Positions 1,648 to 4,601 of a stretch of DNA of 64,000 nucleotides are shown in pieces. Below the pieces are notes generated by a model, which was given only the letters and a program-made list of their open reading frames with translations, did no database searches and was not told the origin of the DNA. The DNA comes from Hallerella succinigenes (GTDB lineage Bacteria > Fibrobacterota > Fibrobacteria > Fibrobacterales > Fibrobacteraceae): assembly GCF_002797675.1 (NCBI RefSeq), contig NZ_PGEX01000001.1, positions 2,852,001 to 2,916,000 on the forward strand. Direction: 5' to 3'. Made by a program: the position numbers and the translations under genes. Every line of letters begins with the position of its first letter. The stretch's first letter is position 1.

Positions 1648-1662
1648 GTTTCATTTTGAAGC
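1648..1662. promoter_or_regulatory. 15-bp palindrome upstream of dnaK promoter (candidate activator site A)
   Basis: GTTTCATTTTGAAGC is an inverted repeat (GTTTCA-N3-TGAAAC with one mismatch). Its centre (1655) is 74 bp upstream of the -12 GC of the dnaK promoter. It overlaps the grpE stop codon. Two related palindromes occur at grpE and groES at spacings that differ by 10 bp. Confidence 0.6.
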
Positions 1663-2304
1663 AGAACCGGACGAAACGATTACCTTGGCGGTCTTCAAAA
1701 GCTTGTTCTTGAGCTTGTAACCTTTCTGGAAAACCTGCACCACGTGGGATTCCGGAACGGTATCCGATGGCTGGTTCATCAGGGCTTCTTGTTCGTTCGG
1801 GTCAAATTCCTGGCCGACCGGGTCGATTTGCACGAGGCCAGCGTCCGTGAGGATTTTATAGAACTGGTCGTGGATCATCTGGATGCCCTTGGAGAATGCG
1901 TCAAAGTCTTTCTGTTGGTTGTTTTCCGGAGCCGCGGCGCGTTCGAAGTTGTCGAGTACTTCGGAAAGCTTTTCGAGGAGTTTTCCGTTTGCGGTTTCGA
2001 TCAAATCGAGCTGTTCCTTGGCGGTGCGGCGGCGGAAATTGTCGAATTCCGCCATCAAACGGACGAACTTATCTGCTGCAGCATTTGCCTGTTCCTTCAG
2101 CGCGGCATTTTCTGCCTGGAGCTTCTGAAGTTCTGCGTCCTTTGGATCGATTGGCTGAGCTTCTTCTGCCTTTGCTTCTTCGGCGGCTTTTTCTTCTGCT
2201 GCCGGAGCTTCTTCCGGCTTAATGCCGGCAATCTCTTCTGCCTGCTTCAGAATGTCGTCGTTTGCTGCGGATTCCTGTGGGTTCTTTTCCTGTTCTTCTG
2301 CCAT
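1651..2304 (-). CDS. grpE: GrpE nucleotide exchange factor
   Basis: Nucleotide exchange factor that releases ADP from DnaK. It has 217 residues. The first ~75 residues are Glu/Ala-rich, low complexity and probably disordered. A long helix follows, with the typical AEFDNFRRRTAKE segment, and then the compact C-terminal beta domain with the family-typical FDPNEQEAL stretch. The N-terminal extension is longer than in Escherichia coli GrpE. It lies directly upstream of dnaK in the same direction. hrcA is not next to it; the upstream gene is groEL, separated by the groEL terminator and a separate -24/-12 promoter. Confidence 0.95.
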   Translation of the reverse strand: MAEEQEKNPQESAANDDILKQAEEIAGIKPEEAPAAEEKAAEEAKAEEAQPIDPKDAELQKLQAENAALKEQANAAADKFVRLMAEFDNFRRRTAKEQLDLIETANGKLLEKLSEVLDNFERAAAPENNQQKDFDAFSKGIQMIHDQFYKILTDAGLVQIDPVGQEFDPNEQEALMNQPSDTVPESHVVQVFQKGYKLKNKLLKTAKVIVSSGSASK

Positions 2305-2361
2305 GATTTTATTTAAGCCTTTATGTTAAAAATCGTTTTGTAAAAGTTCGCATTTCTAAAT

Positions 2362-2377
2362 GCAAAATCCATGCCAA
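2362..2377 (-). promoter_or_regulatory. sigma-54-type (-24/-12) promoter of grpE
   Basis: Minus strand reads TTGGCATGGATTTTGC, a -24/-12 element with perfect GG/GC spacing. Predicted initiation is near 2350, about 46 nt before the grpE ATG (2304). It is the second of three copies in the chaperone block. Confidence 0.7.
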
Positions 2378-2418
2378 AGCGAAAAATGGGGGATTTGAAG
2401 CGTTTTGAATCTTTAGGT

Positions 2419-2433
2419 GTTTCGTTTTGAAAC
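2419..2433. promoter_or_regulatory. 15-bp palindrome upstream of grpE promoter (candidate activator site B)
   Basis: GTTTCGTTTTGAAAC matches the inverted repeat GTTTCA-N3-TGAAAC with one change. The centre (2426) is 64 bp upstream of the -12 GC of the grpE promoter. It is embedded in a longer interrupted palindrome (2420-2437) and abuts the groEL terminator stem. Confidence 0.6.
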
Positions 2434-2436
2434 GAA

Positions 2437-2462
2437 AAAGACCGTGCGTTAGCACGGTCTTT
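2437..2462 (-). terminator. Intrinsic terminator of groES-groEL
   Basis: Perfect 11-bp stem AAAGACCGTGC / GCACGGTCTTT with a 4-nt loop, starting 24 bp after the groEL stop. On the minus strand the second arm is followed by a T-rich run (TTTTTCGTTT), so it terminates groEL transcription before grpE. Confidence 0.85.
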
Positions 2463-2485
2463 CAAAGTCTTGAGCTTTGGAACGA

Positions 2486-4114
2486 TTACATCATGCCGCC
2501 CATGCCTGCACCCATCTGCGGTGCGGCAATCGGCTTGTCTTCCTTCTTTTCCACGATCACGCAGTCCGTAGAGAGGAGCATGGAAGCGATGGAAGAAGCG
2601 TTCTTCAAAGCGGTCTTCGTGACCTTCGCCGGGTCAATGACGCCAGCCTTGATCAGGTCTTCATAAGCGTCGGTCTTGGCGTTGTAGCCGTAGCCGTCCT
2701 TGCCTTCCTTGACCTTGTTCACGATCACGGAGTCTTCGAGACCAGCGTTCTTCACAATCTGACGGAGCGGTTCTTCGATAGCGCGACGGATAATCTTTGC
2801 GCCAGTTGCTTCGTCTGTGTTTTCGAACTTGAGTTCGTCGATAGCGCTTGCAGCGCGAATGAAGGCAACGCCGCCACCCGGAACAATGCCTTCTTCGACA
2901 GCAGCACGGGTTGCGTGCATAGCGTCGTCGACTCGGTCCTTCTTTTCCTTCATTTCAACTTCGGTAGCAGCACCGACCTTGATCACAGCCACGCCGCCAG
3001 CGAGCTTTGCCAAGCGTTCCTGGAGTTTTTCACGGTCGTAGTCGCTCGTCGTCGTTTCGATCTGTTTCTTAATCTGGTTCACGCGAGCCTTGATAGCGTC
3101 GGCGTTGCCAGCACCTTCGACGATCGTCGTGTTGTCCTTCGTAATGGTGACAGACTTTGCACGGCCGAGGACGGTAATCGGAGCATCTTCAAGCTTTGCA
3201 CCGGTTTCTTCGGAAACGAGTGCGCCGCCGGTGAGGATTGCGATATCCTGGAGCATTGCCTTACGACGGTCACCGAAACCCGGAGCCTTCACGGCAGCGA
3301 CCTTCAAGGTGCCACGGATCTTGTTCACAACGAGGGTTGCGAGAGCTTCGCCATCGACGTCTTCGGCGACGATGAGGAGAGCCTTGCCCTGCTTAGCGAC
3401 CTGTTCAAGGATCGGGAGCAAGTCTTTCATGGAGCTGATCTTCTTGTCGTAGAGCAAGATGAACGGATCTTCGAGGTTGACTTCCATCGTGTCCGTGTTC
3501 GTTGCGAAGTACGGAGAGAGGTAGCCGCGGTCGAACTGCATACCTTCGACGACGTCGAGGGTGGTTTCGGCGGTCTTGGATTCTTCGAGAGTAATCACGC
3601 CGTCCTTGCCGACCTTTTCCATCGCGTTAGCGAGAAGTTCGCCGATTTCTGCGTCGTTGTTAGCGGAAATCGTAGCGACCTGGGCGATGTGTTCCTTGCC
3701 GTTGATCTTCACAGCCATCTTGGCGAGCTTTTCGATCACAGCGTCAACTGCCTTGTCCATGCCGCGCTTGATGTCCATCGGGTTTGCGCCGGCTGCGACG
3801 TTCTTGAGGCCTTCACGGGTGATAGCCTGGGCGAGAACGGTTGCGGTGGTCGTACCGTCACCAGCGGCGTCGTTCGTCTTGCTGGCGACTTCCTTCGCCA
3901 TCTGAGCGCCGAGGTTTTCAAACGCGTCTTCGAGTTCGATTTCCTTGGCAACGGAAACGCCGTCCTTCGTCACGGTCGGAGCGCCGTATGCCTTGCCGAC
4001 CATCACATTGCGACCCTTGGGGCCGAGAGTGACCTTCACAGCATTTGCGAGCTGGTCTACGCCCTTCATCAACTTTTCACGTGCTGCAACATCAAACTTC
4101 AATTGCTTAGCCAT
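2486..4114 (-). CDS. groEL: GroEL (Hsp60) chaperonin
   Basis: The 60-kDa subunit of the double-ring chaperonin. It has 542 residues, the usual family length. Visible hallmarks are [11 protein letters not shown] near residue 30, the nucleotide-binding [11 protein letters not shown] around residue 87, and the C-terminal Gly-Met tail ending GMGGMM. It lies 47 bp downstream of groES in a classic groES-groEL operon and is followed by a strong intrinsic terminator. Expression should depend on the promoter upstream of groES. Confidence 0.98.
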
Positions 4115-4161
4115 TTTGTAAATCTCCTAATTCTTGAAATATTTTGAGGTCTGTCCGTGTA

Positions 4162-4443
4162 TTAGAGGATTGCGAAAATATCGCTTTCACGAACGATCAG
4201 ATATTCTTTGCCATCGACGGTCACTTCCGTACCGCTGTACTTGCCATAAAGAACCTTATCGCCGACCTTGACGTCCATGGCGATAGCCTTGCCATTTTCG
4301 TCCTTCTTGCCCGGACCAGCGGCGATAACGGTGCCCTGCATCGGCTTTTCTTTAGCGTTATCAGGAATGTAAAGTCCGCTGACGGTCTTATCTTCTGCCG
4401 GAGCCGGTTCAATGAGAACTCTGTCTGCAAGTGGCTTAATCAT
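4162..4443 (-). CDS. groES: GroES (Hsp10) co-chaperonin
   Basis: Ten-kDa lid subunit for GroEL, 93 residues. It begins [12 protein letters not shown] and contains the mobile-loop region ([10 protein letters not shown]) and the [14 protein letters not shown] strand typical of the family. It is first in the groES-groEL operon. A GGTACACCC-like sequence precedes the ATG on the minus strand. Its leader is about 55 nt from the predicted -24/-12 promoter at 4510-4525. Confidence 0.97.
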
Positions 4444-4509
4444 AGTGGGTGTACCTCTTTGTTGAAATGTTTCTCAGCTTTCGCTGCCTTTGTTCAGTCA
4501 AGGACTATG

Positions 4510-4525
4510 CAAGAATCGTGCCAAA
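4510..4525 (-). promoter_or_regulatory. sigma-54-type (-24/-12) promoter of groES-groEL
   Basis: Minus strand reads TTGGCACGATTCTTGC followed by A, a textbook RpoN -24/-12 match with correct spacing. Predicted transcription start is near 4498. This is the best match to consensus of the three chaperone promoters. Confidence 0.75.
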
Positions 4526-4586
4526 GCATAAAACGGGATTTTTTAGGGCTTTTTGGGGATATTTTGGGAAAAGTGTTTCACGGAAT

Positions 4587-4601
4587 GTTTCAAAATGAAA
4601 C
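4587..4601. promoter_or_regulatory. Perfect 15-bp palindrome upstream of groES promoter (candidate activator site C)
   Basis: GTTTCAAAATGAAAC is a perfect GTTTCA-N3-TGAAAC inverted repeat. Its centre (4594) is 84 bp upstream of the -12 GC of the groES promoter. Extra half-sites lie nearby: GTTTCA at 4575-4580 and TGAAAC at 4623-4628. It is also in the upstream region of the divergent IMP cyclohydrolase gene. Confidence 0.65.

Follow-up and report, generated by a model that had tools for sequence, protein, structure and literature searches.

A palindrome coupled to sigma-54 promoters as a probable enhancer of chaperone genes in Fibrobacteraceae

How are the chaperone genes of a bacterium controlled when a shared palindrome stands ahead of their sigma-54 promoters and no CIRCE operator is found? 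This question is raised by a 64-kb window (the whole stretch of DNA that was analysed), in which dnaK, grpE, groEL and groES occupy positions 1–4443 on the minus strand. A simple scan of the chaperone region revealed no sigma-70-like promoter. Promoters with the -24 GG and -12 GC elements of sigma-54 lie 43–66 nt ahead of the dnaK, grpE and groES start codons and are conserved in the genus. No other exact match to TGGCAY-N5-TTGC occurs in the 64 kb, and all three have minus-strand orientation; 0.27 matches would be expected by chance, and none of 100 shuffles reached three. CIRCE (TTAGCACTC-N9-GAGTGCTAA) was absent from the window even when up to three mismatches were allowed, as an earlier note on this DNA had reported.

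Each of the three promoters is preceded by a copy of GTTTCA-N3-TGAAAC (Table 1), perfect at groES and with one mismatch each at dnaK and grpE, just as that note described. The dnaK copy overlaps the 3' end of grpE, the grpE copy adjoins the groEL terminator and additional half-sites surround the groES copy (GTTTCA at 4575–4580 and TGAAAC at 4623–4628). Counted from the middle of the palindrome to the C in the -12 element, the distances are 74 bp for dnaK, 64 bp for grpE and 85 bp for groES. The note had given 74, 64 and 84 bp, with differences of exactly 10 bp; the groES value is thus 1 bp longer and one of the two steps is 11 bp rather than 10, both still corresponding to about one helical turn. 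Palindrome and promoter recur together at 73–74 bp (dnaK) and 84–86 bp (groES) in all six genomes of the genus, and at 64 bp (grpE) in four of the six.

Table 1. Chaperone genes, promoters and putative activator sites of the window, with the candidate activator gene encoded elsewhere in the genome
Feature	Position	Strand	Sequence or basis
dnaK, 5' part, 512 codons inside the window	1..1537	-	reading-frame start
dnaK sigma-54 -24/-12 promoter	1581..1595	-	TGGCACGCATTTTGC; exact consensus; kept with the palindrome in the genus
dnaK putative upstream activator site	1648..1662	-	GCTTCAAAATGAAAC (gene strand); one mismatch
grpE, 217 aa	1651..2304	-	open reading frame; homology to grpE throughout the phylum
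grpE sigma-54 promoter	2362..2376	-	TGGCATGGATTTTGC; exact consensus match
grpE putative upstream activator site	2419..2433	-	GTTTCAAAACGAAAC; one mismatch
groEL, 542 aa	2486..4114	-	open reading frame
groES, 93 aa	4162..4443	-	open reading frame
groES-groEL sigma-54 promoter	4509..4523	-	TGGCACGATTCTTGC; exact consensus match
groES-groEL putative upstream activator site	4587..4601	-	GTTTCATTTTGAAAC; perfect palindrome
EBP_L019, 474 aa	G000:C1:3064772-3066193		receiver, sigma-54 AAA+ domain and Fis helix-turn-helix

The palindrome on its own is not enriched. The window holds seven copies with up to two mismatches (5.15 expected), and the genome holds 16 copies with up to one mismatch, compared with 13 for a reversed control; we therefore did not count the bare-palindrome search as evidence. 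We instead scanned for a composite of palindrome, 40–68 bp and sigma-54 promoter, with the reversed palindrome as control. The genus yielded 18 matches, three in each of its six genomes, and no control match; across Fibrobacterota the composite was found in 38 of 168 genomes, against one for the control. Independently of the motif, we used protein similarity to find grpE in 30 genomes and scanned the regions upstream of grpE and dnaK. A palindrome with up to two mismatches accompanied 20 of the 22 perfect sigma-54 promoters (119 permuted half-sites averaged 0.08), and 15 of the 22 at up to one mismatch (permuted mean of 0.0). It is the coupling of the palindrome to sigma-54 promoters, and not the palindrome itself, that is far above chance. 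Random placement across the genome, which the earlier note had set against its own reading, is true of the bare palindrome and false of the palindrome joined to a promoter. The notion that these sites reflect chance or the shared ancestry of functionless AT-rich upstream DNA, for which the control-level counts of the bare palindrome might speak, is statistically refuted and leaves practically no probability, as one composite precedes several unrelated chaperone genes in divergent genera while permuted half-sites yield almost none and composite controls stay near zero. Palindrome copies within genes that lack a sigma-54 promoter (L006, L008-L015) were taken as chance, as were loci matching only a loose pattern (L051, L061, L064, L066 and L071), which have no chaperone gene downstream.

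The composite extends to further chaperone genes and well beyond the genus. At clpB, where the note had proposed to look, a sigma-54 promoter follows a palindrome at 71 bp in the same genome, and clpB also carries the composite in a relative. All or nearly all genomes of the genus have the composite at groES, dnaK and clpB; at grpE, the two genomes outside the four mentioned above have no good palindrome site. The conservation in relatives that the note had proposed to check was seen at dnaK, grpE and groES across the phylum: other genera and families carry the composite at groES, dnaK, grpE, clpB and also hsp20, and two unclassified metagenome bins (L131 and L132) carry it ahead of dnaK. In families f14 (L218) and f13 (L220), palindromes stand upstream of dnaK, with weaker sigma-54 sites at distances of 86 and 79 bp, respectively. 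At htpG, also listed in the note for a search, a perfect palindrome is present but follows the -12 element of a perfect sigma-54 promoter by about 110 bp and lies 25 bp before the start codon (L005:3946-4076; G000:C1:181945-182075), a layout kept in five of the six genomes of the genus. This copy may be an enhancer that acts from downstream or may serve a second kind of control. Further matches of the downstream-site search, scattered across other genera, were taken as chance. In f4, hrcA, ahead of grpE, contains two palindrome-like sites and TGGTAC-N5-TTGC at fixed distances of 148 and 233 bp (L219, L221, L222 and L226); these were left uncounted, being located in conserved coding sequence and possibly reflecting coding conservation alone.

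A separate locus of this genome has the same layout. At L007:404-3765 (G000:C1 ~512400-515760), a chaperone-type palindrome (GTATCAAAATGAAAC) is followed at exactly 64 bp by a perfect sigma-54 promoter and then by an operon-like row of genes. Their products are two ThsB-like TIR proteins, a small protein of nucleoside-deoxyribosyltransferase/TIR-like type and two proteins with caspase domains, and the row looks like a Thoeris-like TIR–caspase defence against phages that has been connected to the chaperone enhancer.

Spacing between palindrome and promoter falls into clusters at 31–33, 41–42, 53, 63–64, 71–74 and 83–86 bp. The best-fitting period is 10.3 bp and a Rayleigh test at 10.5 bp gave p ~2.5e-5 for 28 genus-by-gene values, a figure that is supportive and not exact, given that the values (one per genus and gene) follow our own grouping and the genera are related. 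Spacings within 60–90 bp gave p ~2e-4. For this genome by itself, with five promoters, p was 0.06. Some of the distances across the data set (69, 77 and 79 bp) are off phase. The chaperone palindromes thus have the properties sought in a dyad activator site, that is, a position about 30–150 bp upstream and a consistent helical face.

The regulators that usually govern heat shock are missing here. HrcA (PF01628) was absent from all Fibrobacteraceae (f1) genomes searched, this one included; it is present in 32 other Fibrobacterota, and HrcA-bearing relatives have CIRCE at groES. No RpoH (TIGR02392) scored over the cut-off in any of 168 Fibrobacterota genomes, the best protein of this genome reaching 157 bits against a cut-off of 323. 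Could the palindrome then be the operator of a repressor that substitutes for HrcA? A palindrome common to chaperone genes is operator-like, and at htpG the promoter precedes the palindrome, which falls within the leader. Elsewhere, however, the palindrome is 31–92 bp upstream of the -12 element and mostly outside the polymerase footprint, its distances show a 10.5-bp periodicity, sigma-54 promoters require an activator and, in other bacteria, the same palindrome flanks sigma-54 activators. We regard a repressor as very improbable.

If the palindrome is an activator site, a sigma-54 enhancer-binding protein (EBP) should recognize it. A true sigma-54 AAA+ domain (PF00158) is found in eight proteins of the genome, a number that makes the presence of rpoN very likely. 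One of them, EBP_L019, combines this domain (239 bits; loop GSFTGA or GAFTGA) with a C-terminal Fis-type helix-turn-helix (PF02954, 58.6 bits), and it alone among the eight has the recognition helix GISRATLWRKL. All 50 orthologs that we examined retain GISR[AST]TLWRK or a near variant. A strict scan for the exact composite in 84,980 genomes, in which a uniform-base estimate predicts about two matches, found 111 stretches. Many of those from outside Fibrobacterota lie beside an EBP with a Fis-type helix-turn-helix ending approximately in GISRTTLWRKL, and most EBPs that adjoin this palindrome in other phyla have SR[AST]TLWRK. Genomes of Nitrospirota and of Deltaproteobacteria-like bacteria (L100, L087, L136 and L147) have the palindrome and a sigma-54 promoter before genes resembling those of universal stress proteins, with an EBP adjacent.

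Gene order ties the same protein to chaperones. In HrcA-bearing relatives from families f3, f4, f5, f13 and f14, an EBP_L019 ortholog directly follows dnaJ, in operons ordered groES-groEL-hrcA-grpE-dnaK-dnaJ-EBP or parts thereof. A tree of the EBP groups f1 with members of f3, f4 and f5 (support 99/96) and places f13 and f14 elsewhere with weak support. Some relatives with the EBP after dnaJ have no composite at groES and dnaK (L217). In Fibrobacteraceae, EBP_L019 is encoded far from the chaperone genes, and no palindrome was found ahead of its own operon. From its helix and operon context, EBP_L019 is the probable activator acting at the chaperone palindrome. The dedicated chaperone EBP postulated in the earlier note thereby gains support from phylum-wide conservation, the motif-independent test, phasing and a candidate tied to dnaJ operons.

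With eight EBPs in the genome, the enhancer might be bound by a different one, for example EBP_L021 or EBP_L018, both of which also have a Fis-type helix-turn-helix; EBP_L021 even shares the helix start GISR with EBP_L019. Their helices nevertheless differ (GIDRKVLREIM in EBP_L018 and GISRGSLCYQL in EBP_L021), that of EBP_L019 matches the activators flanking the palindrome, and membership of the dnaK-dnaJ operon is limited to EBP_L019 orthologs. Binding by another EBP therefore appears improbable to us, and EBP_L019 remains our candidate. Two further EBPs, L023 and L024 (G000:C1:1814150 and 2690959), are RtcR-like and weakly match a CARF domain of Csm6 type; each adjoins a sigma-54 promoter with a different AT-rich upstream dyad (TTGATATTTAAAAC / TTGAATTTAAAAC). 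Around the contig ends, near EBP L022, the perfect sigma-54 promoter TGGCACGGGTTTTGC occurs in five copies (G000:C1:3648, 6967, 8142, 3123021 and 3126340).

What signal might EBP_L019 receive? In all 30 Fibrobacteraceae loci examined, its gene comes third in a row that opens with a membrane PAS histidine kinase and continues with a stand-alone receiver, and the kinase His and the Asp of the stand-alone receiver are intact in all 30. The receiver of the EBP itself is degenerate. In the window's genus, it keeps Asp51 and Lys101 and is missing one acidic residue and the Thr (Cys79); in all 24 other Fibrobacteraceae, Asp51 is replaced by Glu, Asn or Gly, and the phospho-Asp is lost in 8 of 10 orthologs from dnaJ operons. 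Simple phosphorylation is therefore unlikely as a general switch, and control of the EBP may lie with the partner receiver or with the chaperones. A more specific version, which we put forward only tentatively and consider rather unlikely as it stands, is that the activator, an EBP with a pseudo-receiver, directly monitors protein folding; DnaK/DnaJ might, for example, keep it inactive and release it once they become occupied by misfolded protein. Such a circuit would be the sigma-54 equivalent of control by sigma-32. It would account for the position of the EBP gene right after dnaJ in relatives, and for the loss of the phospho-Asp, often to Glu, in most relatives while the kinase His and the Asp of the partner receiver stay.

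Taken as a whole, these genomes lead us, with good confidence, to a reading in which a sigma-54 chaperone regulon has the palindrome as its enhancer and EBP_L019 as its likely activator, and in which this positive control replaces HrcA/CIRCE in Fibrobacteraceae. GTTTCA-N3-TGAAAC would serve as the upstream activator site for dnaK, grpE, groESL, clpB and htpG, and for hsp20 in relatives. A dimeric Fis-type EBP, likely EBP_L019, would bind it and, presumably in response to stress (heat or misfolding), assemble into an AAA+ hexamer on the side of the helix directed towards sigma-54 RNA polymerase, where it would drive open-complex formation. Fibrobacteraceae would thus use positive control in place of the HrcA/CIRCE repression that other Fibrobacterota have retained.

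HrcA and CIRCE likewise control chaperones, at the groESL and dnaK operons, but do so by repression, whereas the control proposed for Fibrobacteraceae is positive and acts through sigma-54. Another related system is HsfA of Myxococcus xanthus, reportedly an NtrC-like heat-shock regulator of lonD that belongs to a two-component pair; HsfA and EBP_L019 are both response-regulator EBPs and lonD is a heat-shock gene, a likeness by description only. The DNA site itself has a counterpart in propionate catabolism. In Oxalobacteraceae and Stenotrophomonas, the gene downstream of the composite reads as methylisocitrate lyase (prpB), and we therefore named the adjoining EBP, by context, PrpR. The prpB site is likewise GTTTCA-N3-TGAAAC, 65–87 bp from a -24/-12 promoter, and beside it stands a divergent EBP with the helix SRTTLWRK or SRTTLWRW; at ~540 aa, PrpR is not a close relative of EBP_L019.

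The nearest parallel in target genes comes from Bacteroidota. Flavobacterium psychrophilum places groESL, dnaK, grpE-dnaJ, htpG and clpB under sigma-54 control with mapped start sites (PMC9723704), and the gene set behind these -24/-12 promoters (SM4 promoters) is the same as here. Our exact composite scan of genome contigs matched no Bacteroidota chaperone gene. A survey at the level of COGs (PMC12316311), in which Fibrobacter is not mentioned, reports chaperones to be enriched in Bacteroidota and Planctomycetota among the genes predicted to be sigma-54 targets; no paper on such chaperone control turned up in a literature search for Fibrobacter combined with sigma-54 or RpoN. The accessible portion of the F. 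psychrophilum report leaves the activator open among three PF00158 proteins and identifies no enhancer (PMC9723704); to the known sigma-54 chaperone regulons, the present analysis adds an enhancer and a strong candidate activator. It proposes a heat-shock circuit, with its DNA site and probable activator named, for a phylum of major plant-fibre degraders without the usual regulators. The pairing of the palindrome with the recognition helix SR[AST]TLWRK offers a testable specificity rule, and Fibrobacterota, with HrcA-bearing and HrcA-free members that have the same activator, form a natural series from repressor-based to activator-based heat shock.
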